Source of the DNA: Desulfobacterales bacterium | Lineage (GTDB): Bacteria; Desulfobacterota; Desulfobacteria; Desulfobacterales; SpSt-501 | DNA: 46,471 bases | Reading direction: 5' to 3' | NCBI GenBank assembly: GCA_030834695.1 | Contig: JAUQXK010000080.1 | Location: forward strand, 1 to 46,471 | In this document: in pieces, positions 346 to 16,511 of the stretch | How positions within the stretch are numbered: position 1 is the stretch's first letter | Layout of the letters: the number at the start of each line of letters is the position of its first letter | Made by a program: the position numbers and the translations under genes | The notes under the pieces: generated by a model | Database searches by the model: none | Told to the model about the DNA's origin: nothing | The model's input: the letters and a program-made list of their open reading frames with translations, nothing else

Positions 346-1050
346 TTATCCGCCGAGATAGGCTTTCTGGATTTCGGGATTTTTTCGCAGATTGTCGGCG
401 CTGTCGTGAAGAACGATTCGGCCGGTCTTGAGCACATAAGCCCGGTCGGCCACGCCCAACGCTTTCTGGGCGTTCTGTTCGACCAGAAGGATCGTCATGC
501 CGTCCCGGTTCAGCTTTTTGACCAACTCAAAGACTTTATCCACAAAAATCGGCATCAACCCCATCGACATCTCATCGATCAGCAAGAGCTTGGGCTCACT
601 CATCACCGCCCGGCCGATAGCCAGCATCTGCTGCTCCCCGCCTGAAAGGTTCCCGCCCGGCTGATTCCGGCGCTGCTTCAAAATGGGAAACAGCTCGAAT
701 ACCCAATCCACGTTCCTGGCCAAGCGGGTCTGATCTTCAAGGGTGTAGGCACCCATGTGGAGGTTTTGGAGGACGGACAACTCCGGAAAAATCTTTCGGC
801 CTTCGGGTACGATGCTGATGCCGCTCTTGACCCGTTCATGCGCGGCCAGAGGAGTCACGTCGCGCCCATCGAGCCATATGCTGCCGGTGGTCTGTTGAAC
901 CAAGCCTAAAACGGCTCGGATCGTAGAGGTCTTGCCCGCACCGTTGGCTCCGATAAACGTCACCAGCTCGCCCTGGCCGACGTGGAAGGAGACTTCCGAT
1001 ACGGCGCGATATTCACCGTAAGACACCGAAAGGCGGTCGACTTTGAGCAT
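346..1050 (-). CDS. livF: Branched-chain amino acid-type ABC transporter ATPase LivF
   Basis: One of two cytoplasmic ATPases that power a Liv (HAAT family) importer. The 234-residue protein has a Walker A motif GANGAGKTS near residue 35, an ABC signature LSGGEQQ, and Walker B LLLIDE; length and order fit LivF. It is the last gene of the minus-strand run, 13 bases after livG. The module normally imports leucine, isoleucine or valine, but homologues import amides, urea and aromatic acids. Because it sits at the end of a hut-like operon, its solute may be related to that pathway; this is inference. Confidence 0.93.
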   Translation of the reverse strand: MLKVDRLSVSYGEYRAVSEVSFHVGQGELVTFIGANGAGKTSTIRAVLGLVQQTTGSIWLDGRDVTPLAAHERVKSGISIVPEGRKIFPELSVLQNLHMGAYTLEDQTRLARNVDWVFELFPILKQRRNQPGGNLSGGEQQMLAIGRAVMSEPKLLLIDEMSMGLMPIFVDKVFELVKKLNRDGMTILLVEQNAQKALGVADRAYVLKTGRIVLHDSADNLRKNPEIQKAYLGG

Positions 1051-1063
1051 CGCTGGGCCTCGT

Positions 1064-1807
1064 TCAGCTCCCCAGATAAGCCGTGATCACGCGCGGGTCT
1101 CTACGAATGATTTCAGGCGGTCCATCGCATAAATTCTCCCCGAAGTTCAAAACCGCCAGGCGGCTGCACAGTTCCATGACGTGCGGAATGTTGTGCTCGA
1201 TGAGCAGAATGCTCAGTCCTTCTCGCTGGAGGTTCTTGATGACGCCGGCCAGAGGCACGATATCCTCCTCGCTCAATCCGGCAAACGGCTCATCCAGCAT
1301 CAGGACCTTCGGCCGCAACGCCAGCGCCCGTGAAATCTCCATGCGCTTCTGATGACCGAGGGGAAGGGTGGTCGGCGTTTGATCGATGAATTCCTCAAGG
1401 CCCACCAGCCGCAGCAGACGGCGGACCTCGTCTCGATGGGCCTTGAGCCCGGTCCCCAGCATGGAAGGCCTCCATCCGCTGATGCGGTCATGGCCGAGGG
1501 CCACGAGCACATTCCGCTCCAGGCTGATGTTCCGAAAGGGCTTCACGATCTGAAAGGTCCGCCCGATCCCCATGCGGGCGATCCGGTGGGCCGGCCACCC
1601 GGTGACGTCCCGTTCTTCCAAGAACACGCGGCCCTCGTCCGGGCGGAAAACCCCGCAGACCGTGTTGAAAAAGGTTGTTTTCCCGGCGCCGTTCGGCCCG
1701 ATCAGGCCCAGGATTTCGTTGGGCATCAGCTGCAGGCTGACCTTTCGCAGGGCTTGGACCCCGCCGAAGGATTTCGCCACGTTCTCAACTCTTAGAATCG
1801 GAGGCAT
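1064..1807 (-). CDS. livG: Branched-chain amino acid-type ABC transporter ATPase LivG
   Basis: The second ATPase of the Liv-type importer, 247 residues. Walker A is GPNGAGKTT and Walker B is VLMLDEP. The signature region reads LPLGHQKRMEIS, the looser form usual in LivG rather than the strict LSGGQ of LivF. The C-terminal part keeps the LivG-like segment ending in a short extension after the H-loop (LLIEHN). It lies between livM (23 bases upstream) and livF, all on one strand, so the four cytoplasmic and membrane subunits are presumably co-transcribed. Confidence 0.93.
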   Translation of the reverse strand: MPPILRVENVAKSFGGVQALRKVSLQLMPNEILGLIGPNGAGKTTFFNTVCGVFRPDEGRVFLEERDVTGWPAHRIARMGIGRTFQIVKPFRNISLERNVLVALGHDRISGWRPSMLGTGLKAHRDEVRRLLRLVGLEEFIDQTPTTLPLGHQKRMEISRALALRPKVLMLDEPFAGLSEEDIVPLAGVIKNLQREGLSILLIEHNIPHVMELCSRLAVLNFGENLCDGPPEIIRRDPRVITAYLGS

Positions 1808-1830
1808 ACGGTTAAGGCTGTCGCTTCAAA

Positions 1831-2730
1831 TCAATCCCCGGAGTGCCTCATGGAACGAGGCCCCCTCCCCAAAAGCATCCGCAGTATGAAAGCCTTGTCG
1901 CCGAACAATCCCTGGGGCTGAAAGCGCGTCATGAGAACGATCAGCCCGCCGTAAAAAAGGAGCCGGTAGTTTGCCAGCGGCCGCAGCAGCTCAGGCAGCG
2001 CGGCCATCAGCAGGGCTCCAAGAATCGGCCCGCGAAGGGTTCCGATCCCTCCCACCACCATCATGGCGACAATCGTTATGGAAATGGGGAAAGCGAAATC
2101 ATTGGGCGTAATGAACCGCATGAAATGGGCGAAGAGTACGCCCGCCAGTCCCGCCCACGCGCAACCAAAGGCAAAGGCAATGATCTTGAACTTGGCGCAG
2201 TTGATTCCCGAAGCTTCAGCGGCCGCCTCGTTTTCACGGATGGCCTCCAGCGCAAGCCCCAGCCAGGACTTCGAAACCAGCAGGCTGAACAGGGCGCACA
2301 ACCCGACAAAGCCGAGGCACATCAGCAGGTAATAGCCCTTGCTGATCTTCACCCCGAAAAGCGTGGGGTACTGGATGCCCATGATGCCGTATGCGCCGCC
2401 GAAAAAATCGGAATACTCGAAAACGGTCACGATGACGAAGTTGATGCCGATCGTCGTAACGGCCAGAAAATCGCCCTTGATCCGCAGGGAAATCACTCCG
2501 ACCACCGCGCCGATGGCGCCGGCCGCCATCATCGCGAGGGGCGCGGCCACCCAGAAACCGATCCCCAGCTTCAGGGTCAACAGCGCGCTGGCATATGCGC
2601 CGATCCCGAAAAAAGCGGCGTGGCCGAGCGATGCCTGGCCGGCATAGCCGGAAATGATATTCAGGGAGATGGCCAGGATGGCGTAAATGCAGACCAGCGT
2701 CCCGATCGTGGTGAGATATCCCAAGCCCAT
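1831..2730 (-). CDS. livM: Liv-type ABC transporter permease LivM
   Basis: Inner-membrane permease subunit, 299 residues with about eight to ten hydrophobic segments. It carries family hallmarks: an early ISGYAGQASLGHAAFFGIGAY-like stretch near residue 27 and a C-terminal GGIGTLRGPILGA-like loop that contacts the ATPases. It partners LivH to form the channel. LivH ends six bases upstream, consistent with tight coupling. Substrate specificity cannot be read from this subunit. Confidence 0.92.
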   Translation of the reverse strand: MGLGYLTTIGTLVCIYAILAISLNIISGYAGQASLGHAAFFGIGAYASALLTLKLGIGFWVAAPLAMMAAGAIGAVVGVISLRIKGDFLAVTTIGINFVIVTVFEYSDFFGGAYGIMGIQYPTLFGVKISKGYYLLMCLGFVGLCALFSLLVSKSWLGLALEAIRENEAAAEASGINCAKFKIIAFAFGCAWAGLAGVLFAHFMRFITPNDFAFPISITIVAMMVVGGIGTLRGPILGALLMAALPELLRPLANYRLLFYGGLIVLMTRFQPQGLFGDKAFILRMLLGRGPRSMRHSGD

Positions 2731-2736
2731 GACCCT

Positions 2737-3594
2737 TTACCGTGCCCTTCCGAACAGGCCCTGGGGCCGTACGATCAGAATCAGGATCATGGCGGTGAAT
2801 GCGATGGCGTCGCGGGGCATGATGAACCCGAAATAGGCGGACATGAAGGTTTCGGACATTCCGATGATCAGGCTGGCGACGACGGTCCCCGGAATGGAGC
2901 CCATGCCCCCCAACACCACGATGGCGAACATTTTGTAGGAAATGACCGAGCCCATGGTGGGCAGAACCGAATTGTAGTTGATGGCCGTCATGACTCCGGC
3001 AATGGCGGCGATCGACGAAGCGATGATGAAATTGAATGTGACGACCTGCCGGATGTTGACTCCCATCGCTCTCGCGGTGTCCATATCCTGGGCCGTGGCC
3101 TGCCAGGCCAGGCCGAGCTTGGTTTTCGAGATGACCGCGTAGACCACCAGCAGGCAGACGGCCGTCGTGATCAAAATGAGAACCTGATGGGCGGTGACGA
3201 CCGCCTCCAGAAACGCTATTTTTTCAAACCAGAGGTCAACCTTGAACGCGCGGATATAGGGCCCGCCCAGCAGCCGGAATAAATCCTCGCATAAAATGAA
3301 CAGCCCGACCGATGCGATGAGCGGCACGATGCGTTCCTCGGTCAGCATGGGAGTGTACAGATAGCGCTGGATCAGATAGCCCAGCACCGAGCAGCCCGCA
3401 GCGGCGGCGATGAGGGCGAGCACCAGGCTGCCGGTGAACGTGTAGGCGACGAGCCCGATATAGGCACCGCCGACAAAAACAGCCGCGTGCGCGATGTGCA
3501 GGATGCGCAGGATGCCGTAAACCATGGTAAGGCCGACGGCAATGAGGGCATACAGGCTGCCGGTGATGATGCCGTTGAGAAATTGCTGAACCAT
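2737..3594 (-). CDS. livH: Liv-type ABC transporter permease LivH
   Basis: Inner-membrane permease of 285 residues, strongly hydrophobic throughout. It has the LivH opening (GIITGSLYALIAVGLTMVYG region, residues 9-28) and the conserved cytoplasmic coupling loop GGMGSIPGTVVAS. It is the first membrane component after the binding-protein gene and is separated from it by a 72-base gap holding a perfect GC-rich hairpin. The start fits the family N-terminus. Confidence 0.92.
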   Translation of the reverse strand: MVQQFLNGIITGSLYALIAVGLTMVYGILRILHIAHAAVFVGGAYIGLVAYTFTGSLVLALIAAAAGCSVLGYLIQRYLYTPMLTEERIVPLIASVGLFILCEDLFRLLGGPYIRAFKVDLWFEKIAFLEAVVTAHQVLILITTAVCLLVVYAVISKTKLGLAWQATAQDMDTARAMGVNIRQVVTFNFIIASSIAAIAGVMTAINYNSVLPTMGSVISYKMFAIVVLGGMGSIPGTVVASLIIGMSETFMSAYFGFIMPRDAIAFTAMILILIVRPQGLFGRAR

Positions 3595-3603
3595 TTTTCA
3601 GGG

Positions 3604-3628
3604 GCGGCCCCGAGGGTGTCGGGGCCGC
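3604..3628 (-). promoter_or_regulatory. GC-rich hairpin between binding protein and livH
   Basis: A perfect 10-base-pair stem (3604-3613 with 3619-3628) with a 5-base loop lies in the gap between the binding-protein stop and livH. There is no U tract, so it is unlikely to be a full terminator. Such hairpins after substrate-binding protein genes commonly stabilise the upstream message or partly limit read-through, giving more binding protein than membrane subunits. A second, weaker inverted repeat (ATAGAAT 3636-3642 with 3664-3670) overlaps the upstream stop codon. Confidence 0.6.
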
Positions 3629-3666
3629 TTAAGGGATAGAATTAAGAGGGATCACCCCCCCTGATT

Positions 3667-4836
3667 CTATGGGGTCAAAAGCTTCAGGTCGGAGACCACT
3701 CCAAAATGACGGAAGACATTGCTCCGCACGACCTGCAGTTCGACGTTCTTGATGACTTCTCCCTGGGGAGTAAAGGCTTGGATCTGTCCGGTGACCCCCT
3801 GCCACCCCTTCATAGCCCGGAAGGCGTCGACGATCTTGTCGGCGTCGGTGCCGACTTTCTTGATGGCGTCGATCACCATGAGAAGGGCGTCGTAGGTCGA
3901 TGCACCGGTCATGTCCGGGGCGAAGCCGTATTTCTTCTGGTATTCGTCCAGGTACTTCCGGGTGATTTCGGCCTTGGAGTCGCGGTCCAGATTGGTGGTG
4001 ATGATGATGCCCTCGGCGGCCTTTCCGGCCACATCGAGAAAGCCTTTGGTGCTGTCCAGACCCTCGGAGCCCATCTGCTGGGTCTTGATACCCAGGTCCG
4101 CCGCCTGCTTGAGAATCAGGGCGCCGTCGATCGGGTAAGCGGTGTTGTAAATCAAATCGGGATTGAGCTGCTTGATCTTGGTGAGAACCGGTGAAAACTC
4201 CTTCTCGCCCATTTTAAACTTGTCGGCGGACAGGACCTTGACTCCCAGGCCCTCCGCCTGTTCCCGGAACCCGCTGGCCAGCGATTGGCCGAAATCGTTG
4301 TCCTGGATCAGCATCGACACGGTCTTGACCTTCAGGAGGTTTCCGGCGGCGTAACCGCCGGCCCGGCCCTGGACGTGGCCCAGAACCGTCACCCGGAAAA
4401 CGTACTTGCCGCCTTCGGTGATGGCGGGATGCAGCGCGTAGCCGACCGAGAAGGGAATCTTCTCCTCCTGGAAGACCTGGGCCGCCGCCCGGGTGGTAAA
4501 AGAATAGGAACCGGACACGCCGGCGACCACCTTATCGCCCTCGATCATTTTCTGGGCCACGGTCACCGCCTGCTTCGAGTCGAACTGGTCGTCGTAGACG
4601 ATCAGCTCGATTTTCCGGCCGTTGATGCCCCCCGCCGCATTCACTTGCTCGACCAGCATCTCACAGGACTGCTTGGCGGAAAGACCATCCGCAGCGGCCG
4701 GGCCGGTCAAGGGCGCCATCAGTCCGATCTTGATCGGCTGCGCCGCTGCCGGCGAACTCGGCCCGCCGATTCCCGCAACCATCACGGCAGCTATCCAAAC
4801 CACTATCAATTCCTTGGTGCCAATGCCCTTCATCAT
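3667..4836 (-). CDS. Liv-type ABC transporter periplasmic substrate-binding protein
   Basis: Exported solute-binding protein (peripla_BP_6 / LivJ type), 389 residues from the chosen start. A signal peptide (MMKGIGTKELIVVW onward, ending near AAAQ) precedes the mature IKIGLMAPLTGPAA-like strand. The frame stays open 38 codons further upstream, but the ATG at 4836 has a good AGGAG seven bases ahead and puts the signal peptide at the N-terminus. It delivers substrate to LivHM. The ligand is unknown; hut-operon context makes an amino acid or imidazole-type acid possible, which is inference. Confidence 0.88.
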   Translation of the reverse strand: MMKGIGTKELIVVWIAAVMVAGIGGPSSPAAAQPIKIGLMAPLTGPAAADGLSAKQSCEMLVEQVNAAGGINGRKIELIVYDDQFDSKQAVTVAQKMIEGDKVVAGVSGSYSFTTRAAAQVFQEEKIPFSVGYALHPAITEGGKYVFRVTVLGHVQGRAGGYAAGNLLKVKTVSMLIQDNDFGQSLASGFREQAEGLGVKVLSADKFKMGEKEFSPVLTKIKQLNPDLIYNTAYPIDGALILKQAADLGIKTQQMGSEGLDSTKGFLDVAGKAAEGIIITTNLDRDSKAEITRKYLDEYQKKYGFAPDMTGASTYDALLMVIDAIKKVGTDADKIVDAFRAMKGWQGVTGQIQAFTPQGEVIKNVELQVVRSNVFRHFGVVSDLKLLTP

Positions 4837-4888
4837 GGCAGGTCTCCTTTCATCCATGACCGGTTGCCGCCGCTCCACTGCAACTAGA

Positions 4889-4917
4889 CTGGCTTCGTAA
4901 AAAGCCCAAACTCTGCG
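4889..4917. repeat. Partial copy of the 41793-41916 repeat end
   Basis: These 29 bases match the reverse complement of 41886-41914 at 25 of 29 positions by hand alignment, including the core CTTCGTAAA and the following CTCTGCG. It is apparently one end of the MITE-like element described at 41793-41916. It lies in the gap between the LarA-family gene and the binding-protein gene. Confidence 0.6.
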
Positions 4918-4973
4918 AGGAAAATAGACCAACTTACTTTGATTAGGCAAGCCTTAAGTGATGACGGCGATCT

Positions 4974-6275
4974 TCAAAGCCCTGGCCCCGCCGGCGCGAC
5001 GATGGGAAGGCAGTCCCCGCCGCGGGGCAACACCCCGATCGTTCCCGCGGGGAGCCTGCGAAGCGCCCGATCCACCGCGTCCTGGAGACTCGCGAGCTTT
5101 TGATAACCGAGGATGGCGCTGTCGGCCGGCGTCAACCCGTCGGAAACCAGCAAGATATCCGCTTTTTCACGAACGCGGGCATTCAGGATGGCCAGGTCCG
5201 CCGCAATCAAATCCGCCTGGGTGTCCTCGGGCGAGCAGTTCCTGGCCGCTGCACAGGCTTCCGTATAATTCAGCTTCAGCCAATCTCTCAGCCGGGGGTG
5301 ATTGTGCTCCAGCCCTTCCGGGCATGGCGCGACAAATATGATCACCCCTCCCCTTCGGACCGCGAAATAAGCGGAGATGATCCCCTTCTCCGCCTGCCAG
5401 TAGTCGATGTCGCAGGGATAGGAGCTGACGATGACAATGTCGGCCGGAGCCGGGACCGAAACGCCGAAGCTCCGGCGAGACGTTCGAACGCCCTGGCGGT
5501 GGGCCGCGATGAAGTCTCCGGCGACGACCTCGACGATCTCGTTCTGGAAATTCTTGACCACGTTGATGATGAAGCTCAGACCGACCCTCCGGGCGACCTC
5601 TTCCATGCCCTGACGACACGGGTTTTCAACGATGCCGAGCGGGATTTCATCCAGGAGGGCCGCGGCGACATGGGTCGCGGCCGTAGTCGCATAACCGCAG
5701 ATGCCCGGCTGCAGGATTTTGGCCCCGCCCGAGAACCCGGCGTCACAGTGCGGGATGATGTCTCCGATGCCGATGATAAAATCGGCCTCCAAGGCCTTGC
5801 GATTCACCTGGACCGGAATGACGCTTCCGCCGACCTGGACCGTTCCGAGGTCTTTCAGGTTCTCGAGGTCGCTGAAGTCGTGCTGCGAAACCCGCACGCG
5901 GTTCGCAGCGCCGGCGCCGATTTTCGCTTCCAGTTCGGGCGGTGTCATCACCCGATGGGTCCCCGGGGCGGTCAGGATCTCGATGCTTGAAAGGGCAACG
6001 CCGGCCTCCTGCAGATAGGACAGGAGCACCGGCAGGATCCGGTCCACCGGCGTGTTGCGCGTGTTGTCCTCGACCAGGATGAGGAGCTTCACCCGCGATT
6101 CGACGAGGTTCCGCAGCGGCTCGCACCCAACAGGGCGGTCCAGCGCCTTTCGCAGCGCTTCCTCGAAATTCGCCAGCGCCGGCAGCCGCTCCATTTCGCC
6201 CGCAAAGAGCAGGCGTTCGACCGGAAGTTGCGCTTTGAGAAAAGCGCGACCGTAAGGAATGGATATGTCCATCAT
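4974..6275 (-). CDS. LarA-family nickel-dependent hydroxyacid racemase/epimerase
   Basis: A 433-residue member of the LarA (DUF2088) family, whose enzymes racemise or epimerise 2-hydroxyacids by hydride transfer using a nickel-pincer cofactor. Visible motifs are DNTRNTP (71-77), GTHR (105-108) and PHCDAGFSGGAK (175-186). From memory of Lactobacillus LarA, His108, His174, Lys184 and His200 align with His107, His176, Lys186 and His202 here, so the active site looks intact. Its ATG overlaps the stop of the aconitase X small subunit (ATGA), implying translational coupling. The cofactor genes larB, larC and larE are not in the window. Substrate is unknown; lactate is only one of several possible hydroxyacids. 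Confidence 0.85.
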   Translation of the reverse strand: MMDISIPYGRAFLKAQLPVERLLFAGEMERLPALANFEEALRKALDRPVGCEPLRNLVESRVKLLILVEDNTRNTPVDRILPVLLSYLQEAGVALSSIEILTAPGTHRVMTPPELEAKIGAGAANRVRVSQHDFSDLENLKDLGTVQVGGSVIPVQVNRKALEADFIIGIGDIIPHCDAGFSGGAKILQPGICGYATTAATHVAAALLDEIPLGIVENPCRQGMEEVARRVGLSFIINVVKNFQNEIVEVVAGDFIAAHRQGVRTSRRSFGVSVPAPADIVIVSSYPCDIDYWQAEKGIISAYFAVRRGGVIIFVAPCPEGLEHNHPRLRDWLKLNYTEACAAARNCSPEDTQADLIAADLAILNARVREKADILLVSDGLTPADSAILGYQKLASLQDAVDRALRRLPAGTIGVLPRGGDCLPIVAPAGPGL

Positions 6276-6700
6276 GGCTGGGTTCCCCGTATCGAGACGA
6301 GCTGGTTGTCGGCGTCCACGGTGATATAAGATCCGGTGCGGACCCGCTCGTAGAATTCCTTGCCGACCCGCATCACCGTCGGGATCTCCATGACGATGGC
6401 GCTCGATACCAGAACCGGGTCGGGATACTCCACGATCATGCCCTTGGGGGCCTTGTCGTGTTTCATCAGCTTGTAGAGCCCGTCCGCCTGAACCACGGAG
6501 CTGCCCTTCCCGGAAGGCATCACCAGGATTTTGCCGGCAATGCTTTGGCCCTCCAGGGCGTGATGCTTCTCGATCACGATCCCGGTCTCGGGCTCGACCA
6601 GATAGAAACAGATGGCATCCGTCGAGACGATGGCTTCTCCTTCGGCTTTTCCTTCGGCGATCTTACGGCACGTTACATTCTGAAGCCCTTCCGCTCTCAT
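6272..6700 (-). CDS. Aconitase X small (swivel, DUF126) subunit
   Basis: A 142-residue swivel-domain subunit of the two-subunit aconitase X type. The conserved GKGSS segment with Ser67 and the downstream KAPKGMIV-like strand mark DUF126. The frame is open 85 codons further upstream, but that part is a shadow of the large subunit; the ATG at 6700 overlaps the large-subunit stop by four bases (ATGA), the usual arrangement. Known two-subunit relatives are bacterial cis-3-hydroxyproline dehydratase and archaeal phosphomevalonate dehydratase. The reaction here is presumably dehydration of a hydroxyacid. Confidence 0.88.
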   Translation of the reverse strand: MRAEGLQNVTCRKIAEGKAEGEAIVSTDAICFYLVEPETGIVIEKHHALEGQSIAGKILVMPSGKGSSVVQADGLYKLMKHDKAPKGMIVEYPDPVLVSSAIVMEIPTVMRVGKEFYERVRTGSYITVDADNQLVSIRGTQP

Positions 6701-7917
6701 CGCAGCACCTCCCCGCGGATGGCCGCCTCCACGCATTCTTTCAGCGGTCGGATGATGAATTTGATCTTGCGGATCTCGTTGTAGTAAGCGCATTTCGGCG
6801 AATCCGTGACGCCGGTCCTCCCGTAATAGGGCTGCCAGCAGGGGGGAACGTCGATGCAGGTATCGGCCACGATGTGGCCGCCCGCCCTCTGGATCGTCTG
6901 CAGGTAGCCCATGCGGCCGGCCAGTTCGCGGGTCAGTGAACTGGTCAGCACCCAAAAATCGATCTTGAGGCGCTTTCCTTCCAGGACTTCGGCGATCTCC
7001 GCCACCTGGCGGATGGAAAGGTGCGGGCAGCCGAACATGGCGAAATCGATCTTCCCGGGCTCCCCGCAGATTTGCTGCCGGACATGGTCCAAATCGCTTT
7101 CGGTTATCTCGACACGCTGCTTAAAGGGCCTCCCTCCGAGCGCCGCGTCCAGGCTGGGGGCCTCCGGGGTGATGCCGGCGATATGGTACATCGAAACCGC
7201 GCCGGAGGTGTTCAGCTGTGCGCCGAAGTTCATGAACCCTTCCGGAGTCGGCCTCTTGCGGATCCCCGTAAAGACCGGAACCTCAAGTCCCTTGTGCTTC
7301 AAGGGGTAGCACCAACCCAACAGCTGGTAATCGAAATCCGTTTCGATCCTGGCCGACACGTCCACCCGGATCTCGGCCCTGCGTTGCTCATCCAGCAGCA
7401 ACCCGTACTCCGCCACTCTCCCGGTGACGGCAGCGCACAGGGCGCTCTGGGAGGATTCCCGGTTCGACCGGGCTCCCAGGACCGAGTTCACGTACGGCGT
7501 GGCGCTCGATTCCGAGAAAGCCACTATCTCGCCGTACGCCGGGATATTTTGCTGCAGGTAAGGCGTGCAGTCGAACGTCAATGTGGCGCCGATCCGGCGG
7601 TAGGCCTCGTTCGTTGCCGAAACGATATCCACGCCTTCCTTCGGGATTTGAAATAAATGCTGATTCAGGTAGGCCAGATCGATGCTGGGGTTGACGGTGG
7701 GCGGGACCTTGCAGCGCGCCCCTTTGTTCAGAAGCTTTTCAACAAACCACAGGTCGGCATCCTGGGCGCTCAACGCCACGTGCGCCCGGGTGATCGCCAC
7801 CATGCGCCCGGCGTCGAACGCTTCACCGATTCCCACCTGGATTTTCATCGCAAGGGCCGTGCCTTCGCCGTATCTTCCCGCCAGCATGTCTTTTTCTTCT
7901 TGGGTCAGCTCCATCAT
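6697..7917 (-). CDS. Aconitase X large (DUF521) catalytic subunit
   Basis: A 406-residue hydro-lyase subunit of the aconitase X family. Family marks include an N-terminal LTQEEKDML, Cys117 (CTPYL), FGCPH with Cys297, and ADTC with Cys354; the three cysteines are the expected iron-sulfur ligands. The usual late motif near TNSAK appears as TDSPKCAYY. AAAGGAG precedes the two tandem ATG codons. Bacterial two-subunit relatives dehydrate cis-3-hydroxyproline, but no proline-pathway genes are nearby; instead it sits between a TRAP transporter and a LarA-family gene, suggesting a hydroxycarboxylate substrate (inference). Confidence 0.88.
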   Translation of the reverse strand: MMELTQEEKDMLAGRYGEGTALAMKIQVGIGEAFDAGRMVAITRAHVALSAQDADLWFVEKLLNKGARCKVPPTVNPSIDLAYLNQHLFQIPKEGVDIVSATNEAYRRIGATLTFDCTPYLQQNIPAYGEIVAFSESSATPYVNSVLGARSNRESSQSALCAAVTGRVAEYGLLLDEQRRAEIRVDVSARIETDFDYQLLGWCYPLKHKGLEVPVFTGIRKRPTPEGFMNFGAQLNTSGAVSMYHIAGITPEAPSLDAALGGRPFKQRVEITESDLDHVRQQICGEPGKIDFAMFGCPHLSIRQVAEIAEVLEGKRLKIDFWVLTSSLTRELAGRMGYLQTIQRAGGHIVADTCIDVPPCWQPYYGRTGVTDSPKCAYYNEIRKIKFIIRPLKECVEAAIRGEVLR

Positions 7918-9282: not shown

Positions 9283-9785
9283 TTCCGGTTGTCTCCCAGG
9301 CCCGCTGAAATGAACTCCGTCAGAAATGAATGAAACATTTGAATCGCCATGAAGAGCCCGCCGGCCGCCGAGGCGCCGTAGGCCCAGGACATGGAGAGAA
9401 ACAGGGCCGGAGAGCTTTGGTTACGCACGAACCAGGCGAGCTGAAAGCCGCCCACCGTCAGAACCACCAGAAATGCGAAAATGGCAGCCTTGGAGACGAG
9501 CGAGACCCGGCGCCGTTGACGAGGACCGAGGCGCGTGATCAGGGCTTCGACCCCGATATGCAGGTTTTTCTGCAGGGCGAGCCCGGCGGCCAGGAACGAC
9601 ACCCAGATCATCAGGTAGCGGGCGATCTCCTCGGACCAGGAAAGCGAACTGCTGAAAAGATAGCGAAGCAGGACCTGCACGATGACCAGGATCGTCATCA
9701 CCAGGACCATCGCGATCGTAATGATTTCGACCCATCGGGCGGAGACGCGGCTGAGCGTCTCCGCTATCGACATCAAGCGTTGCAT
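9279..9785 (-). CDS. dctQ: TRAP transporter small permease DctQ
   Basis: A 168-residue four-helix membrane protein with the DctQ signature WSEEIARYLMIWVSFLAA near residue 50, which places it beyond doubt in the family. It forms the membrane complex with DctM. Gene order dctP-dctQ-dctM is standard. Its 3' end overlaps the dctM start, and a perfect hairpin separates it from dctP. Confidence 0.92.
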   Translation of the reverse strand: MQRLMSIAETLSRVSARWVEIITIAMVLVMTILVIVQVLLRYLFSSSLSWSEEIARYLMIWVSFLAAGLALQKNLHIGVEALITRLGPRQRRRVSLVSKAAIFAFLVVLTVGGFQLAWFVRNQSSPALFLSMSWAYGASAAGGLFMAIQMFHSFLTEFISAGLGDNRK

Positions 9786-9845: not shown

Positions 9846-10886
9846 CTAATTACCCTGTTCGGCTTCCTTGGCGGACTTGAGCGCCCAATCGACCCACTTC
9901 TTGTCGATCTTGGTCGAAATGAACTCGATGACCGGCTTCTGGGTCGCTTCCCGGAACAACTGAAGCTCTTTCTCGTTCGGCGTGTAAAGCTGCATGCCCT
10001 TATCCTGGAGAATCTTGACCCCGTTGAAAACGTGACGGATGTTCTGGCCGCGCGAAATGGTGGCCATCAGCTCGCCGCCGTCCCGCACGACCGTGCGGAT
10101 ATCCGCCGGCAGGGATGAGTAGAACTTGTCGTTGATCAGGATCGGCAGGACGCTGTAAACATGCCCGTCCAGCGTCAGGTATTTCTGCACCTCGTAAAAC
10201 TTGCCGATTTCGATAACCGACACGGGGTTTTCCTGCCCGTCGACCACGCCCTGCTGCAGGGCCATGTAGACCTCGCCCCAGGCGATGGGGGTGGGAGTGG
10301 CGCCCAGCGCCTTGACCATGGCCATATGGGCCGGATTTTCCATGGTCCGGATCTTCAGGCCCTTCATGTCCTCGGGGGACTTGACCTGACGCACCCGGTT
10401 GGTGAAGTTCCGGAACCCGTTCTCGCCCACGCCCAGCGTCCGGACGCCGGTCTTTTTGCGCATTTCTTCGAACAGGGCCTTTCCGAAATCGCTGTCCAGC
10501 GATTTGTGCGCCACCCGCTCATTGCCGTAGAGATACGGAATGCCGAGCACCATGATCTCCGGGAAGAAGCCGGCAATGGGACCTTCGGCGATCATGCACA
10601 TCTCGATCGTGCCCTGCTGCACCCCTTCGTACTGCTCCCTCTCCTTGCCGAGCTGGCTGGCCGGATAAACCTCGACCTGCACCGCCCCTCCGGTGCGCTG
10701 TTCGACGAAGCGCTTGAAGACGGTCACGCCGACATGAATGCTTTCTTCTTCCACGGGGGGCTGGCCGTGGGCGAACTTGATCACAATCGGGGCGGCGCCA
10801 GCCTGTGGGGCGCCGGCCAGCAAAAAAGTCAGAACAGAGAGGGTCATGAAAATGGTGACGATGGTTCGAAAACGTTTCGTGATCAT
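9846..10886 (-). CDS. dctP: TRAP transporter substrate-binding protein DctP
   Basis: A periplasmic extracytoplasmic solute receptor of 346 residues. A signal peptide covers about residues 1-31 (MITKRFRTIVTIFMTL, cleavage after AGAA), and the mature protein begins PIVIKFAHGQPP, typical of DctP. The conserved LKIRTMENPAH region holds the arginine that binds the ligand carboxylate in the family. The fit is to the classic C4-dicarboxylate/2-oxoacid branch, but the ligand cannot be named. Placement directly downstream of hutI makes a urocanate-pathway acid or a hydroxyacid for the LarA/aconitase X pair plausible. Confidence 0.92.
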   Translation of the reverse strand: MITKRFRTIVTIFMTLSVLTFLLAGAPQAGAAPIVIKFAHGQPPVEEESIHVGVTVFKRFVEQRTGGAVQVEVYPASQLGKEREQYEGVQQGTIEMCMIAEGPIAGFFPEIMVLGIPYLYGNERVAHKSLDSDFGKALFEEMRKKTGVRTLGVGENGFRNFTNRVRQVKSPEDMKGLKIRTMENPAHMAMVKALGATPTPIAWGEVYMALQQGVVDGQENPVSVIEIGKFYEVQKYLTLDGHVYSVLPILINDKFYSSLPADIRTVVRDGGELMATISRGQNIRHVFNGVKILQDKGMQLYTPNEKELQLFREATQKPVIEFISTKIDKKWVDWALKSAKEAEQGN

Positions 10887-10939
10887 AGGCGTCCTCCTTG
10901 TGCAGTTGATGGGATGGTTCTCTTCCGATCGAAAAGTGA

Positions 10940-12184
10940 TTAGGGCAAAGGCGCCCGGATCACCTTTCCACGCTTGATCAACCCCACGATGGGATTGCGA
11001 TCCAAACGGTAGACGAATTCCTCAAACACCGGAATGTCCCAGATCTGGATGTCGGCGAGCCCGCCCGTTTGGAGACATCCGATATCCGGAAAACGGTTCA
11101 ATGCCTTGGCGCCTCCCACGGTTGCCGCCAGCATGGCCTCCTCCGGGGACAGGCGATGGCGTCGGCAGGCCAGGACCATCACGAAATGCATCGTCTCAGT
11201 CCAATTGCCCGGGTTCAGGTTGGTTGCCAGGGCCAGGGTCATGCCGGAATCCAGCACGGCCCGGGCGTCGAAGGGCTTGGGGTGGTTCACGGCGAAATCC
11301 AGGGCGGGCAGGCCGACGCCGACGACGCCGGCTTGCGCCAGCCGGCGCATCTCGGCAGGCGTCGTGTAATTCAGATGATCCATCGATACCGCGCCCAGAT
11401 CGACGGCCAGGTCGGCAACGCCGGTTGCCGAATATGCATCCGCATGAATCTTGGGCCTCAAGCCATGGGACAGCCCGGCTTCAAGTACTCGCCTGGTCTG
11501 ATCAAGGGTATAGTACCCCTCGTCACAGTATACATCGCAAAATTCCGCCAGCCGCATCCCGGCCGCGCGCGGAATCATTTCGTTGACCAGGAGATCCACA
11601 TAGCGGTCCCGGGGAATGTCTTTGGGGAAGTCATGCGCGCCCAGGAACGTGGAAACGATATCCGCCGGGCAGGATTGACTCAGCCTTCGGGTGGTTTCGA
11701 GTTGTTTGAGCTCGTCGCTCCAACTGAGTCCGTATCCCGATTTCGATTCAATCGTCGTCGATCCCGAGGCGAACATCCGGTTCAACCGATCTGCCGACTC
11801 TGCGAAGAGACGTTCAGGATGGGCCTCCCGGGTCATGCTCACGGTGGCGGGGATGCCGGCCGGAATGCCCATTGCTGCGACCTGTGCGGCGGTGCGGGTC
11901 ATTTTAGCGGCGTATTCAATCGACCGGGAGCCGCCGAATACCAGGTGGGTGTGACCGTCGACAAAACCCGGGGCCACGAGCCCCCCGTGGGCGTCAACCA
12001 CCCGAGCGGCGGAAAGATCCAAGCGCGATGACACCTCGGCCGCCGAACCCACGACCATTATCCGCTCGCCGGCGACGGCCACGCAACCGTGCGCCACCCG
12101 GCCGAGCGGGTCACCATGGGTGGCGGCGCAGGTAACCACCTCGGAGGCGCCGGTAATGAACAGATCCGCCTTGGGTTTCTCCAT
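10940..12184 (-). CDS. hutI: HutI-like imidazolonepropionase with altered active site
   Basis: An amidohydrolase of 414 residues, closest in overall pattern to imidazolonepropionase, which opens imidazolone-propionate to formiminoglutamate. GHTH (His78, His80), ESKSGYGL, FLGAHDFP, His247 and His270 are all in place. Two positions differ: the usual HADE motif is HADA (Ala250), and the usual ATDLNPG metal-ligand Asp is Asn322 (codon AAC at 11219-11221). From memory, Bacillus HutI uses Glu252 and Asp324 here. The ATG at 12184 is preferred over an upstream in-frame start because AAGGA lies eight bases ahead and it leaves one base after the hutU stop. It may act on a modified substrate. Confidence 0.82.
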   Translation of the reverse strand: MEKPKADLFITGASEVVTCAATHGDPLGRVAHGCVAVAGERIMVVGSAAEVSSRLDLSAARVVDAHGGLVAPGFVDGHTHLVFGGSRSIEYAAKMTRTAAQVAAMGIPAGIPATVSMTREAHPERLFAESADRLNRMFASGSTTIESKSGYGLSWSDELKQLETTRRLSQSCPADIVSTFLGAHDFPKDIPRDRYVDLLVNEMIPRAAGMRLAEFCDVYCDEGYYTLDQTRRVLEAGLSHGLRPKIHADAYSATGVADLAVDLGAVSMDHLNYTTPAEMRRLAQAGVVGVGLPALDFAVNHPKPFDARAVLDSGMTLALATNLNPGNWTETMHFVMVLACRRHRLSPEEAMLAATVGGAKALNRFPDIGCLQTGGLADIQIWDIPVFEEFVYRLDRNPIVGLIKRGKVIRAPLP

Positions 12185-12185
12185 G

Positions 12186-13922
12186 CTATTTGTCCTTGGT
12201 GTGGGCACTTCTGCGGAGCTGACGGCCGCCCTCGGGTCCGAAGGTCGCCGTGGGGCTCCACCACAGCGGGATCTTGATGCTTTCTTTGGTCAGCTTTCCG
12301 CGGCCCTGGGCCACTTCCCGCGCCGTTTCATACCCGGCCTGAGCATGGCGAACCACTCCGATTCCGGAGTCCGTCGTCATGCAGGCACCCAAGCGCAGGT
12401 CGGCCTCCTCGGTGCCGTCCGCGATCATGGTCACACCGGTGTGCACCGCTTCGCCCATCGAGTAGTTGGCCTGCATGGCGATCAGATCGCACATGGCGGC
12501 GCAGTTCAGCAGACCGTTGAGCATGGGCCAATCGGATATCAGATCGCCGCCGTCCTTCATCTTCTCGGACTCGAAGGTCGGGTTGACGATCGAGCCGGAA
12601 TCCAGGTTGTCTCGCGAAAACGCCACCGGCCCTTTCACTTCGCCCTGCTTGATCAAGTCGTTCACCGCCAAGGCAAACGCTTTGCGTTCGCCGAAGCCCA
12701 GGTAGCAGACCCGTGCCGGCAGACCTTCGATGGGCAGGTGCTTGCGGGCCAGGTTGACCCACTTGACCGTCAGCTTGTCTTCCGGGAACATCTTCAACAC
12801 CAGATCATCCAGACGCGCGAGATCGCTCGCCTCGCCCGAGATGCAGGTCCAGCGGAAAGGCCCGCGGCCTTCGCAGAAAAGCGGGCGGATATACTCGGCC
12901 ACGAAGCCCGGAATCGTCATCGCCTCTTTCTCGGGCATGCCCGCATCGCGGCATTCCTTGCGGATGCTGGTGCCGTATTCGAAGACGTGCACGTTCTTCT
13001 TGGAGGCGAAGGCGTTCATGGCCCGCAGTTGCTTGACCATGGATTCCCGTGCCTTCTTGAAGCACAGGTCGCGGTCCTTCATGCGCAGGGCTTCGGCCTC
13101 CTGGGGGGAAAACCCCTCGGGGATATACGACAGCGGATCGTGACAGGGGCACATCTCGGTGACCACGTCCGGCTCGAATCCTTTTTCATAAGCTTCCCAG
13201 AACAGGGTGGCGGCATTGCCCACCACGCCGATGCCCAGGGCCCTTTTCTCGGAAGCGGCTTTCTTGGCCATCCGGATGGCCTCGTCCAGGTTCTTGGCCT
13301 TCACGTCGGAGAAACCGATCTGGATGCGCTTGTCGATGGTCTGTTCGTTCACGTCCACGGCGATGCACACCCCGCCGTGCATGCTCATCGCCCGCGGCTG
13401 GTTGGCGCCCATGCCGCCGTGGCCGGCGGTGAGCAGAATCCGGCCGGCCATGGTGCCGTCGAAATGACGGGCGGCGATGGCCCCCAGCGTCTCGAAGGTG
13501 CCCTGGATGACGCCCTGGGTCCCGATATACTCCCAGGGGGCGGCCGTGTACTGGGCGAAAATGGTCAAATTTTTATCCTGCAGATCGTAGAAAATGGGCC
13601 AGGTCGCCTTCATGATGTTGGTAGTGGCCATCACCACGCGCGGGGCCAGCTTATGCGTCTTGAAGATGGCCACGGGCATCCCGGACTGCACCACCAGGGT
13701 CTCGTCGTTTTCCAGGCTTTTCAGGGAGTCGACGATGGCGTGATAAGATTCCCAGTTGCGCGCGCATTTGCCGATGCCGCCGTAGACCACTAGATATTCC
13801 GGCGCCTCGGCGTTCTCCATATTGTTCTCCAGCATGCGCAGGAGGGTCTCTTGTTTCCAGCCCTTGCACCTCAATGTCGGTCCGCGCTGGGCTTTGACCG
13901 AATAAAGAATTTCCGGCTTCAT
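12186..13922 (-). CDS. hutU: Urocanate hydratase-like protein HutU (divergent)
   Basis: A 578-residue urocanase homologue; urocanase adds water to urocanate using tightly bound NAD. The glycine-rich GHGGMGANQP loop, the YIRPLFCEGRGPFRW catalytic-cysteine segment and LPARVCYLGFGER are recognisable. The usual glycine-rich HHGGGVGMG segment near the C-terminal third is replaced by a shorter MQANYSMGEA (about 483-492). The start at 13922 has AAGGAG six bases upstream; the frame stays open 17 codons further. Together with the changes in HutI this suggests a distinct sub-family. Confidence 0.83.
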   Translation of the reverse strand: MKPEILYSVKAQRGPTLRCKGWKQETLLRMLENNMENAEAPEYLVVYGGIGKCARNWESYHAIVDSLKSLENDETLVVQSGMPVAIFKTHKLAPRVVMATTNIMKATWPIFYDLQDKNLTIFAQYTAAPWEYIGTQGVIQGTFETLGAIAARHFDGTMAGRILLTAGHGGMGANQPRAMSMHGGVCIAVDVNEQTIDKRIQIGFSDVKAKNLDEAIRMAKKAASEKRALGIGVVGNAATLFWEAYEKGFEPDVVTEMCPCHDPLSYIPEGFSPQEAEALRMKDRDLCFKKARESMVKQLRAMNAFASKKNVHVFEYGTSIRKECRDAGMPEKEAMTIPGFVAEYIRPLFCEGRGPFRWTCISGEASDLARLDDLVLKMFPEDKLTVKWVNLARKHLPIEGLPARVCYLGFGERKAFALAVNDLIKQGEVKGPVAFSRDNLDSGSIVNPTFESEKMKDGGDLISDWPMLNGLLNCAAMCDLIAMQANYSMGEAVHTGVTMIADGTEEADLRLGACMTTDSGIGVVRHAQAGYETAREVAQGRGKLTKESIKIPLWWSPTATFGPEGGRQLRRSAHTKDK

Positions 13923-13965
13923 CCTTTTCTCCTTTGCGTTAGGTCGAAAGACACGCAGCGGTGTC

Positions 13966-14865
13966 CTATTCAATCATGTCCAAGAGGTTGTTTTCGATAA
14001 TCTGAGTCAGGGAGAAGCTGTGGAGTTGAAGGTAGTGTTTGAGCGGCTCCTCCAGGGCTCCCAAGGGAACCGGCCCGACGAGTTCCGCCCCGGCCACCGC
14101 AACGCCGTAGCGCGCCGCCTCCGAGCGGATCGTCTCCATGACGCGGGGGATGGGCGTCTTGGTGTAGTTGGTCAAGTTCATCGACACCTGCACCATGCCC
14201 TCGTTTTCAAGGGCCAGCCCGATGGCCCGCACGAAGCGATACCCCCCGTTGATGAACCGGACCCCCTTGGCGATGGTCTGGGCGATCACAAGATCGCTTG
14301 TCCGGAGGTTGACGTTCAAGGCGATCAATGGAAAGCGCGCCCCGGTCACCGTCGCCCCGGCCTTCGGATTGAACTGGGCCGGACCCTCATCGGGGAGCCA
14401 TTCCGGATGCTTCAGCTTTTCCGCCAGGGCCTCGTATTGGCCTTTGCGAATACTGGTCAGCAGGGTGCGCTCGGGCCGGGTCGCCGAGTCTTCATAATAG
14501 TAGACCGGAACGCCCAGCCCGCCCAGAAAGCGGCCGAACTCTCGCGAAATCTCGACCGCTTCGGCAGTGTCCACCCCGCGGACCGGTATAAACGGCACCA
14601 CGTCCACCGCCCCCTGGCGCGGATGGGACCCCTGATGCCGCGCCATGTCGATCAGCTCGACGGCCTTGGCGGCCATGGCCTGGGTGGCGGCGAGCACGGC
14701 TTCGGGCCGCCCCAGGTAGGTGATCACCGTGCGGTTGTGATCCGCGTCCGATGAACATTCGGTGATCTTCACCTCCTGGACCGAGCGGATCTGATCCAAC
14801 ACCTTTTCAACCAATCCGTGATCGCGGCCTTCACTGATATTGGGAACACACGAGAGGATCTTCAT
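13966..14865 (-). CDS. ftcD: Glutamate formimidoyltransferase
   Basis: The enzyme moves the formimino group of formiminoglutamate to tetrahydrofolate, releasing glutamate. The 299-residue protein matches the stand-alone transferase domain: MKILSCVPNISEGR at the start, DHNRTVITYLG near 47-57, and HPRQGAVDVVPFIPV near 84. The frame is open 68 codons upstream as a shadow of the next gene, but the ATG at 14865 with GGGAG ahead matches the family N-terminus. Its presence argues that the operon really does generate formiminoglutamate. Confidence 0.92.
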   Translation of the reverse strand: MKILSCVPNISEGRDHGLVEKVLDQIRSVQEVKITECSSDADHNRTVITYLGRPEAVLAATQAMAAKAVELIDMARHQGSHPRQGAVDVVPFIPVRGVDTAEAVEISREFGRFLGGLGVPVYYYEDSATRPERTLLTSIRKGQYEALAEKLKHPEWLPDEGPAQFNPKAGATVTGARFPLIALNVNLRTSDLVIAQTIAKGVRFINGGYRFVRAIGLALENEGMVQVSMNLTNYTKTPIPRVMETIRSEAARYGVAVAGAELVGPVPLGALEEPLKHYLQLHSFSLTQIIENNLLDMIE

Positions 14866-14882
14866 GGACGTCTCCCTTCTTC

Positions 14883-15452
14883 TCAATCCAGCCGCTTCAG
14901 ACGCTCGGCTTGTGATTGGATTCGCTGGGCCTGGTTCGCATCTTTGATTTTGGGAAGATTGATCGCCACGTTGGATAGGCACCCGTCGAGCCCCGCCCGC
15001 GCCAGATAAAGAGCGCACTCCAGATCCGATTGGGCATTTGGGTTGGACCGGCCCGTGAGCGTTCGGCACCGTTCGATGACGCGGCGGCAGCTTTCGGCGT
15101 TTTCAAGAGGGATGCGAGTGGCCTGCAGCATCGCTTCTGCAACCGCCTCCTGGCGGGCCGCCCGTTCCTTCTCGGAGGTCTTGGGCAAGCGGAATGCAGC
15201 CATCACGGCATCGAACGATTCCGAGTCCCGGCGGGCGCCTTGAAGCAGCCTGCGCGAAAGGTCCTCGGCTTCATCGATGATCGGTCGGTAGAAAGCGTCG
15301 GGCTCCATCCCGGGCTTTCCCATCGACAACCGGGCGACCATGGCCGCCAGCGCAGCCGCCATGCCTCCGGCGACCGCCGAGGCCGAGCCTCCCCCCGTTG
15401 AATTGTCGGCCGGGTCCAGGATACGAAGGAATGTTTTAATGGTTGGTTCCAC
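14883..15452 (-). CDS. fchA: Formimidoyltetrahydrofolate cyclodeaminase
   Basis: The enzyme converts formimino-tetrahydrofolate to methenyl-tetrahydrofolate and ammonia, completing one-carbon recovery after FtcD. The STGGGSASAVAGGMAAALA segment near residue 18 and the helical body are typical; 189 residues from the chosen GTG, against about 205 in the family. The frame extends to an ATG at 15563, but that codon lies between the predicted -35 and -10 elements and the extension runs through the operator, so a start at GTG 15452, matching the family N-terminus (EPTIKTFL), is preferred. The ribosome site is weak and the exact start is uncertain. Confidence 0.82.
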   Translation of the reverse strand: MEPTIKTFLRILDPADNSTGGGSASAVAGGMAAALAAMVARLSMGKPGMEPDAFYRPIIDEAEDLSRRLLQGARRDSESFDAVMAAFRLPKTSEKERAARQEAVAEAMLQATRIPLENAESCRRVIERCRTLTGRSNPNAQSDLECALYLARAGLDGCLSNVAINLPKIKDANQAQRIQSQAERLKRLD

Positions 15453-15525
15453 GATGAAATCGCTTTCAGCAATGACCGGTTCGTATAGCGTAACGCCAAA
15501 AAATGCTTGACGAGGGTGGCGCAAA

Positions 15526-15545
15526 TGTATATGGTTGCATATACA
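15526..15545. promoter_or_regulatory. Predicted HutC-type operator, perfect 8-4-8 inverted repeat
   Basis: TGTATATG at 15526-15533 and CATATACA at 15538-15545 are exact reverse complements around a 4-base spacer. Overlapping it, 15535-15546 reads TTGCATATACAA, a near-palindrome resembling the TGTATATACA-type sites that HutC/GntR-UTRA proteins bind (from memory). It lies where the minus-strand hut transcript should begin and 126 bases from the divergent GntR gene. The most economical reading is repression of the hut operon by the adjacent regulator. Confidence 0.7.
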
Positions 15546-15551
15546 AGCTTT

Positions 15552-15581
15552 CTTGTAGGCCATCTCCTAATGCCGTGTCAA
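15552..15581 (-). promoter_or_regulatory. Predicted sigma70 promoter of the hut-like operon
   Basis: On the minus strand a perfect -35 TTGACA (15576-15581) is followed after 18 bases by TACAAG (15552-15557, 4 of 6 to consensus). Transcription would start near 15545, at the edge of the inverted-repeat operator. No other promoter is evident for the fourteen genes down to 346. Confidence 0.55.
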
Positions 15582-15671
15582 GAAAAAAAATGGGGCGCTT
15601 CCGGTGGTCGATCGAATACAAAAAGCGATGTCTCATCTTGACGCAGCCCATCGCTGGAGGTTTCCCCGTCG

Positions 15672-16511
15672 GTGAAACTAAAGACCAGAAAGCCCCGCAC
15701 GTTATCCCCGGCCGAGCTTAAAGGACTGGACACGCTTGCCAGACATCGGAGCCCCTCTTTCCACCTGGCCGAGCATGCGTTGGCTTCCAAACCGCTTTTT
15801 CAGCAAGTCAAAGACCATATCGTCGGCCAGATCGAATCGGGTAAATGGCCGCCGGACACCCGCATCCCTTCTGAAAACGAACTGATCGACAAGCTTTCGA
15901 TTTCGCGAATGACGATTCACCGGGCGCTTCGGGAATTGACGTCGGAAGGCTATTTGACCCGTGCTCAGGGGCTGGGGACGTTCGTCGCCGCCCCGAAAGC
16001 GCAGTCCGCCTTGCTGACGATTCGCCCCATTTCCGACGAAATCTCCAAGCGGGGAGGTATCCACACGGCGGAGGTTTATTTGTTGGCCGAAGAAAAGGCA
16101 GACCTTGAAATTGCCGAAGCCTTGGGGCTTGAACCCGGCGCATTGGTATACCGGTCCGTCATCGTCCACCATGCCGACGGCTTGCCGGTTCAGCTCGCCG
16201 ATCGCTACGTCAATCCCCTCGTGGCTCCAGATTTCATCAAACAGGACTTCTCGAAGATCACTCCCAGCCACTACCTTTTCCAAGTCGGACCCCTGACCAG
16301 GGCCGAGCATATCTTCGAGGCGATCATACCCGATCTTCGCACACGCACCTTGCTGAAGATCGGTGCATCCGAACCCTGCCTGTTGCTGACGCGCAGAACC
16401 TGGATCCATGAAAAAGTGGCCTCGCGGGCGCGCCTGATCCATCCCGGATCACGGTTCAAGATAGGAGGGATCTTCACGCCGCCCTCCTCGCTCAGCCCTG
16501 TCGTAGGATGA
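15672..16511 (+). CDS. GntR-family UTRA-domain regulator, HutC-like
   Basis: A 279-residue regulator with an N-terminal winged helix-turn-helix (about residues 40-110, with PSENELIDKLSISRMTIHRALREL) and a C-terminal UTRA ligand-binding domain. This is the HutC layout, where urocanate or a related acid is the inducer. The N-terminal 38 residues before the DNA-binding domain are longer than usual. It starts at GTG with GGAGG eleven bases upstream. It diverges from the hut-like operon and faces a matching operator, so it is the likely repressor. A strong terminator follows its stop. Confidence 0.88.
   Translation: MKLKTRKPRTLSPAELKGLDTLARHRSPSFHLAEHALASKPLFQQVKDHIVGQIESGKWPPDTRIPSENELIDKLSISRMTIHRALRELTSEGYLTRAQGLGTFVAAPKAQSALLTIRPISDEISKRGGIHTAEVYLLAEEKADLEIAEALGLEPGALVYRSVIVHHADGLPVQLADRYVNPLVAPDFIKQDFSKITPSHYLFQVGPLTRAEHIFEAIIPDLRTRTLLKIGASEPCLLLTRRTWIHEKVASRARLIHPGSRFKIGGIFTPPSSLSPVVG

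Follow-up and report, generated by a model that had tools for sequence, protein, structure and literature searches.

We describe an operon in a 46,471-nucleotide contig (contig C12 of a 5.65-Mb draft genome; JAUQXK010000080.1, referred to here as the window) of a Desulfobacterales bacterium, in which genes for the lower part of histidine utilisation (hut) stand with genes for a two-subunit iron-sulfur dehydratase, aconitase X (AcnX), a LarA-family racemase, a tripartite ATP-independent periplasmic (TRAP) importer and a Liv-type ABC importer. Our results suggest that this operon is probably a conserved and rare branch that feeds a hydroxyacid into the hut trunk. The association between AcnX and hut genes exceeds chance and recurs in three phyla, Thermodesulfobacteriota, Synergistota and Bacillota.

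We infer the substrate, the urocanate product, the transporter ligands and the mode of regulation from observed gene content, gene order, linkage, co-occurrence and catalytic residues. The compound imported, probably through the TRAP system, would be a 2-hydroxy acid with an imidazole ring; D/L-imidazolelactate, histidine's hydroxy analogue, is the most likely candidate. LarA would interconvert the enantiomers, and the two-subunit AcnX would remove water from one of them to give urocanate, in place of the ammonia-lyase HutH. HutU, HutI, FtcD and FchA would then convert urocanate to glutamate and one-carbon-loaded tetrahydrofolate, under the control of HutC, which we take to be a sensor of a urocanate-type inducer. 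We give an even chance to this route from imported D/L-imidazolelactate, in which LarA racemises the compound and AcnX dehydrates it directly to urocanate. The fuller proposal, a histidine-type entry free of HutH and of its MIO (4-methylideneimidazole-5-one) group, in which imidazole acts as the electron sink and the nickel-pincer racemase recovers both enantiomers, is put forward more tentatively, at somewhat below even. The genes concerned are as follows.

346..1050, minus strand: LivF, ABC ATPase (NF008626, 261 bits, under the cut-off of 441; ABC_tran)
1064..1807, minus strand: LivG, ABC ATPase (NF008449, 211 bits, under the cut-off of 362; ABC_tran and BCA_ABC_TP_C)
1831..2730, minus strand: LivM, ABC permease (PF02653)
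2737..3594, minus strand: LivH, ABC permease (PF02653)
3667..4950, minus strand: LivK, periplasmic binding protein (PF13458, 234 bits; Shine-Dalgarno-supported start at 4836)
4974..6275, minus strand: LarA-family nickel-pincer racemase (Lar_N, 164 bits, cut-off 23; catalytic residues kept)
6272..6700, minus strand: AcnX small subunit, swivel domain (PF01989, 96 bits, scored on the longer open reading frame 6272-6955; base Ser kept)
6697..7917, minus strand: AcnX large subunit (PF04412, 417 bits; aligned to 7cnr)
7993..9282, minus strand: DctM, TRAP large permease (TIGR00786, 429>268)
9279..9785, minus strand: DctQ, TRAP small permease (PF04290)
9846..10886, minus strand: DctP, TRAP binding protein (TIGR00787, 250>175)
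10940..12208, minus strand: HutI, imidazolonepropionase (TIGR01224, 345>298; likely start 12184)
12186..13973, minus strand: HutU, urocanase of a distinct clade (TIGR01228, 628>375; likely start 13922)
13966..15069, minus strand: FtcD, glutamate formimidoyltransferase (TIGR02024, 410>221; likely start 14865)
14883..15563, minus strand: FchA, methenyl-tetrahydrofolate cyclohydrolase (PF04961, 178 bits)
15526..15545, no strand: palindrome with 8-bp arms and a 4-bp loop, in the divergent FchA/HutC region
15672..16511, plus strand: HutC repressor, divergent (TIGR02018, 283>220)

The minus-strand genes run from 15563 down to 346 in the order fchA-ftcD-hutU-hutI-dctPQM-acnX(L,S)-larA-livKHMGF. With the starts as chosen, the pairs DctQ/DctM, AcnXL/AcnXs and AcnXs/LarA overlap by 4 bp, the small AcnX subunit having a Shine-Dalgarno-supported ATG at 6700 that overlaps the AcnXL stop. 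The largest intergenic gap, between LarA and LivK, is 137 bp with the LivK start at 4836 and 23 bp with the longer LivK reading frame; a Shine-Dalgarno site was looked for at the LarA start and none was found. FchA is a full match to Pfam FTCD_C, yet falls under the NCBIfam FchA cut-off (144<275), and its true start probably lies further inside the reading frame, since the domain match begins at residue 39-41. The palindrome is a possible HutC operator. A scan for promoters and terminators gave no more matches than in shuffled sequence. A first-pass annotation of this DNA had counted fourteen minus-strand genes, one short of the fifteen found here; the genes it named, in the order it gave, are all present by profile matches at 346-16511, and it was right about the overlaps and short gaps (none above 137 bp), the divergent HutC-like regulator and the lack of any HutH match in the window.

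The evidence for a link to histidine breakdown comes from related loci. A scan of GTDB genomes with the AcnX large subunit gave 25 loci, 13 of them at 71-77% identity to the window, 11 at 51-69% and one, archaeal (L028), at 35%; this last was left out of the genome searches for HutU, lyase and LarA and included in the tree, and two loci from the window's own genome (L003 and L004) were handled apart. When the window HutU was searched in the 23 genomes behind the other 24 loci, a member of its clade at 70-80% identity was found in every one of the 13 AcnX-clade genomes, linked to AcnX or not (one copy is partial and one has an in-frame stop), against 1 of 10 comparison genomes (Fisher 1.2e-5). 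The comparison genomes held one 60% relative, one 48% canonical HutU, in five cases only a long type at 31-33%, and in three no HutU; the long type also occurs in 9 of the 13 AcnX-clade genomes. In the AcnX tree the window lies in a clade of 18 rows (support 97/98). Counting as hut-linked any row with a HutU match no more than 13 kb away or with HutI matched in the locus, we find 10/18 in this clade, 0/13 in the other large clade and 5/5 in a Synergistota clade, and nine of the ten linked rows adjoin the HutU clade. The tree program flagged a meeting of long branches at L028 and the Synergistota AcnX clade, as well as the length of the L115 and L116 branches.

A sample of 149 Synergistota gave a similar picture. 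Six of these genomes have AcnX at 60% identity or more and 11 have the HutU clade; the 5 with both carry the two genes at most 9 kb apart, so that the HutU clade occurs in 5/6 AcnX genomes versus 6/143 others (Fisher 4.7e-6). The sixth AcnX genome, G516, has a long-type HutU (~31%) beside AcnX (L116, inside the 18-row clade). The HutU clade is found without this AcnX clade in 6 of its 11 genomes, three of which (G443, G490 and G493) carry an AcnX at 47-50%; occurrence of the HutU clade without AcnX is what one would expect of a trunk enzyme whose feeder is optional. In samples of 395 genomes from the window's own phylum and 398 from that of the seed G396, the AcnX clade turned up in the window genome and in G396 alone; hence, the module is rare.

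Individual loci carry the same genes in other arrangements. Desulforhopalus singaporensis has, on one contig (L007 and L072), LarA-AcnX-TRAP, HutC and HutU-FchA-FtcD-HutI-LivKHMGF; the gene set is that of the window and only the order differs. The 20 kb of L072 contain no HutH match, and the two lyase genes of this genome are on other contigs. The Dethiosulfatibacter aminovorans genes are split between two contigs: AcnX-LarA-2-hydroxyacid dehydrogenase-LivKH close one (L005), and LivMGF-HutU-HutI-FchA-FtcD open another (L062). Synergistota loci (L011/L073, L017/L071, L113 and L114) join AcnX, TRAP and HutU with HutI, FchA, FtcD and HutH. L115 reads GntR-AcnXL-AcnXs-LarA-DctP-two arginase-family genes-HutI-HutU-DctQM, and the 17 kb that run to the end of its contig contain no match to HutH, FtcD or FchA. 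Its arginase-family genes score 167 and 155 bits with the agmatinase model (cut-off 174) and 135 and 122 with hutG (cut-off 229), and it is a guess that they are HutG-like.

The first-pass annotation had proposed that inversion by LarA and dehydration by AcnX feed a hut-type route, and this is still the best-supported reading, with the clade co-occurring with hut genes over three phyla. AcnX, LarA-type genes and TRAP genes are also found together in the clade in which no row is hut-linked; the block is thus a general hydroxyacid module, one clade of which is hut-associated. That annotation had also taken independence of the block from hut genes, with no linkage elsewhere, as evidence against itself; the linkage in more than one phylum is the opposite of this. 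Where it had an imidazole-type acid degraded "plus, or by way of," a hydroxyacid, a narrower statement can be made: a feeder branch, most likely ending at urocanate.

The LarA protein retains the Lar_N domain, the Arg, Lys and His that bind the nickel-pincer nucleotide (NPN), the two catalytic His and the equivalents of D72 and K298, and LarC, needed for nickel insertion into the cofactor, is encoded in its own genome. It passes no function-level NCBIfam model, the best being malate racemase LarAH6 (305<500). The available text of PMC7583248 and PMC11770544 places the side chain at LarA1 positions 175, 176, 297, 358 and 359, and gives malate racemases His or Gln at 358 and Lys at 359. The window LarA has Cys, Asp, Glu, Asp and Leu at these five positions; in eight relatives 175/176 is Ser-Asp, 297 varies among Glu, Leu, Gly and Ile, 358 is Asp or Val, and 359 is occupied by Leu, Ile or Val. 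Asp176 is present and the malate racemase lysine absent in 9/9 of these sequences, window included, and Asp176 is found in none of the aligned LarA homologues at 40% identity or less. A function as malate racemase was rejected on the pocket residues together with the score. An acid near the side chain would suit imidazole better than malate, an argument of moderate strength only, because the same Asp occurs in LarA beside a non-hut-clade AcnX (L121) and beside a Synergistota-clade AcnX (L117), which counts against our proposal. As a separate observation, an NPN group 22 isomerase (one member scores 498>400) clusters with AcnX in nine loci (L008, L009, L013, L015, L022, L023, L025, L026 and L027), in five of them only with the non-hut-linked AcnX clade.

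It is also conceivable that one promoter serves two modules, a hydroxyacid module (TRAP, LarA and AcnX, acting for example on malate or tartrate) and a hut module supplied with urocanate that enters through Liv. The malate racemase model as best score, 6d6z as nearest solved chain, the occurrence of AcnX with LarA-type genes and TRAP away from hut, and the presence of Liv with HutU in L062, L068 and L072 all favour this arrangement. It is nevertheless unlikely in view of the missing lysine and His/Gln, the restriction of linkage to one of the two large clades (10/18 versus 0/13) and the co-occurrence that persists at genome level when the genes are unlinked. DctPQM stands in the same locus in 16/18 clade rows, whether hut genes are present or not (L005 has a sodium symporter and L116 only weak matches), and Liv goes with HutU in the three loci just named; the hydroxyacid is therefore more likely to enter through TRAP.

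For AcnX we relied on alignment to the archaeal TkAcnX (7cnr), with residue roles taken from the available text of PMC8184944. Ser62(S), Cys110, Glu129, Ser130, Ser131, Cys283, Cys342, Lys361 and Tyr365 are all kept, and Thr63(S) is Ser in the small subunit; the two-subunit form, Cys110, Cys283, Cys342, Glu129, Lys361 and Ser62(S) place the enzyme in type II. A four-residue deletion takes out the phosphate contacts Gly48, Val49 and Ser50, and Asn53 is replaced by Ser. The contacts are also deleted in 31/31 other bacterial AcnX aligned and are present in L028, from Lokiarchaeota. The residues that mark a mevalonate-5-phosphate dehydratase (Gly48, Val49, Ser50 and Asn53) are thus missing from the window AcnX, and mevalonate-5-phosphate was rejected as its substrate; cis-3-hydroxyproline was rejected on score and alignment. 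Arg44 and His46, invariant in 21/21 aligned large subunits and not found in L028, were considered as a candidate second-carboxylate site.

The chemistry is where our proposal is most exposed. In the AcnX enzymes described in the available text of PMC8184944, the proton alpha to the carboxylate is abstracted and a beta-hydroxyl leaves. The carboxylate-binding residues of known AcnX are conserved in the window enzyme, and the imidazolelactate route would need loss of an alpha-hydroxyl, with imidazole replacing the carboxylate as the acidifying group; this is its weakest step, and both points tell against it. The elimination that ergothionase carries out on ergothioneine is a loose precedent. An alternative is that AcnX keeps to its usual chemistry and forms urocanate from an imidazole acid with a beta-hydroxyl, for instance 3-hydroxy-3-(imidazol-4-yl)propanoate, and that LarA inverts the carbinol or acts on a precursor. 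The AcnX substrates in the available text of PMC8184944 are indeed beta-hydroxy acids, and the residues for such chemistry are conserved here. Against this, LarA enzymes of known activity use 2-hydroxy acids, as far as the available text of PMC7583248 and PMC11770544 goes. The 2-hydroxyacid dehydrogenases encoded in related loci, next to LarA in L005 and between HutU and HutI in L011, L113 and L114, likewise indicate a 2-hydroxy acid. We know of no abundant source of 3-hydroxy-3-(imidazol-4-yl)propanoate, and consider this alternative improbable. An aminotransferase that scores with hisC (312>277 bits) follows LarA in L006 and has an orthologue in L024; together with the dehydrogenases it would fit an exchange among histidine, imidazolepyruvate and imidazolelactate.

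AcnX is also found in settings of another kind. In L019 and L020 an AcnX at 55% identity stands among genes for MTTB-family methyltransferases and an ABC importer of the glycine-betaine type (in L020 by shared reading-frame clusters); it may perhaps dehydrate a beta-hydroxy acid that carries a quaternary amine, carnitine for example. In Dethiosulfatibacter (L121:1554-9688) AcnX (54%) and LarA (55%) stand with a BCCT transporter, an ornithine-cyclodeaminase-family gene and a GntR regulator.

In the hut part of the operon, HutU and HutI score over their equivalog cut-offs and a HutC-type regulator is present, as in a hut pathway. The genome has two aromatic-lyase genes on other contigs; the one on C111 scores 700 bits, over the hutH cut-off of 539, and the one on C46 scores 384 bits, under it. 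C111 also holds FchA, HutI and a long-type HutU (~31% identity to the window HutU), which passes the hutU cut-off (420>375). The ordinary histidine route therefore lies elsewhere in the genome, and the window duplicates its lower half without the entry enzyme. A genome-wide replacement of HutH by AcnX was rejected, as 24/24 genomes scanned have an aromatic-lyase match, a finding that weighs against our proposal; replacement would be within the operon only.

The window HutU scores best with a model for S-methyl thiourocanate hydratase (653 bits, cut-off 880), which does not favour our proposal. This score, together with changes relative to aligned solved urocanases such as TDQTSAHD to TEMCPCHD, raises the alternative that the HutU clade might handle a methylated or sulfur-bearing urocanate analogue made by AcnX and LarA. 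We regard this as very unlikely. The urocanase Cys, which we take to be the catalytic residue, is kept, and is Gly at that place in 7ned and 8q9u, presumably (S-methyl)thiourocanate hydratases; with this Cys and scores below the cut-offs (653<880 and 603<930), a thiourocanate hydratase function for HutU itself was rejected. The HutU clade occurs inside HutH operons (L059, where the lyase passes the hutH cut-off at 680>539, and L060) and close to HutH in L064. AcnX relatives, in turn, adjoin three urocanase types, the HutU clade, the canonical type (L016, in which a 62% AcnX outside the 18-row clade lies beside a 47% HutU with HutH) and the long type. As AcnX relatives pair with all three and the HutU clade also serves HutH operons, the shared intermediate is probably plain urocanate. 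Literature searches found no paper under the name thiourocanate hydratase and, among the matches listed, no usable account of urocanase active-site residues. Viral contigs queried with HutU gave no match; solved AcnX, HutU and LarA chains gave strong sequence matches to the window proteins.

Other HutU-clade loci deserve mention in their own right. An Acidaminobacter hut operon (L059:9110-12854) has two HutU-clade genes in tandem. At L061:3235-6416 and L063:2292-5414 HutU-clade genes lie near a lyase under the hutH cut-off of 539 (445 and 451 bits), preceded in L061 by a BCCT-like betaine transporter (353 and 317 bits, under NCBIfam cut-offs) and in L063 by a 520-residue reading frame instead; that these loci serve histidine-betaine breakdown to urocanate is a guess.

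Several features of the distribution weigh against a hydroxyacid feeder of the kind proposed. By the tree linkage rule 8/18 clade loci show no hut gene, and several clade loci have HutH near HutU. L029 has a broken AcnX piece (segments at 69% and 59%; not long enough for the tree, its genome being one of the 10 used for comparison) beside HutH, HutI, FtcD, FchA and Liv, in a genome without the HutU clade. A LarA of the window type (at least 54%) is present in only 6/14 AcnX-clade genomes searched, own genome included. In six clade loci the isomerase beside AcnX is an NPN group 22 protein instead, called by clustering in L008, L009, L013 and L015 (one of them scored) and by position in L010 and L012; 5/18 clade loci have no LarA-type gene beside AcnX. 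The Fisher values assume independence and no statistic is adjusted for relatedness; L113 is almost a copy of L011 (98% in one gene), and two genomes of the Synergistota sample, G401 and G407, had already served as seeds of the AcnX scan.

If the proposal is true, the aconitase superfamily would gain a new reaction and a class of substrates new to it, and imidazolelactate would become part of amino-acid catabolism in bacteria. A role would also be assigned to a LarA group recognised by no function-level model, and a first one to bacterial type IIa AcnX, which has no assigned function in the available text of PMC5144071 and PMC8184944, the latter assuming that type II enzymes share the mevalonate role. 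Among the matches listed in the open-access literature, the part that was searched, no paper joins AcnX with LarA or describes imidazolelactate dehydration, and two LarA superfamily papers, in their available text, make no mention of "imidazol-", aconitase or dehydratase. The pairing repeated in three phyla points to an unrecognised hydroxyacid feed into histidine breakdown. Beyond HutC, at 16665-19682, the window encodes cytochrome bd subunits II and I and an Rrf2-family regulator.

Set beside known systems, the operon shares with the canonical hut pathway (HutH-HutU-HutI-FtcD/FchA or HutG, HutC-regulated) the urocanate-to-glutamate trunk, with HutU, HutI, FtcD and HutC over their cut-offs, but has no HutH, and AcnX, LarA and TRAP take the place of the entry step. 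Coote and Hassall reportedly found that Pseudomonas degrades imidazolyl-lactate by oxidation and transamination to histidine, followed by HutH; the starting compound would be the same, whereas direct dehydration is proposed here. The type II mevalonate-5-phosphate dehydratase TkAcnX (7cnr/7cns) likewise has its small and large subunits as separate chains, and the window enzyme retains its catalytic Ser, Glu, Lys and Tyr and its three cluster Cys; the window enzyme differs in its lost phosphate contacts and its hut context. Fused single-chain AcnX is homologous over the whole length and shares the base Ser, but its amine-binding Asp203 falls in a gap here and the window scores 241 bits against a cut-off of 700. 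The malate racemase Mar2 (LarAH6, 6d6z) is the closest solved chain to the window LarA and shares all NPN-binding and catalytic residues; its pocket His and Lys, however, are Asp and Leu in the window protein, which has an Asp two places past the catalytic His and falls under the equivalog cut-off.

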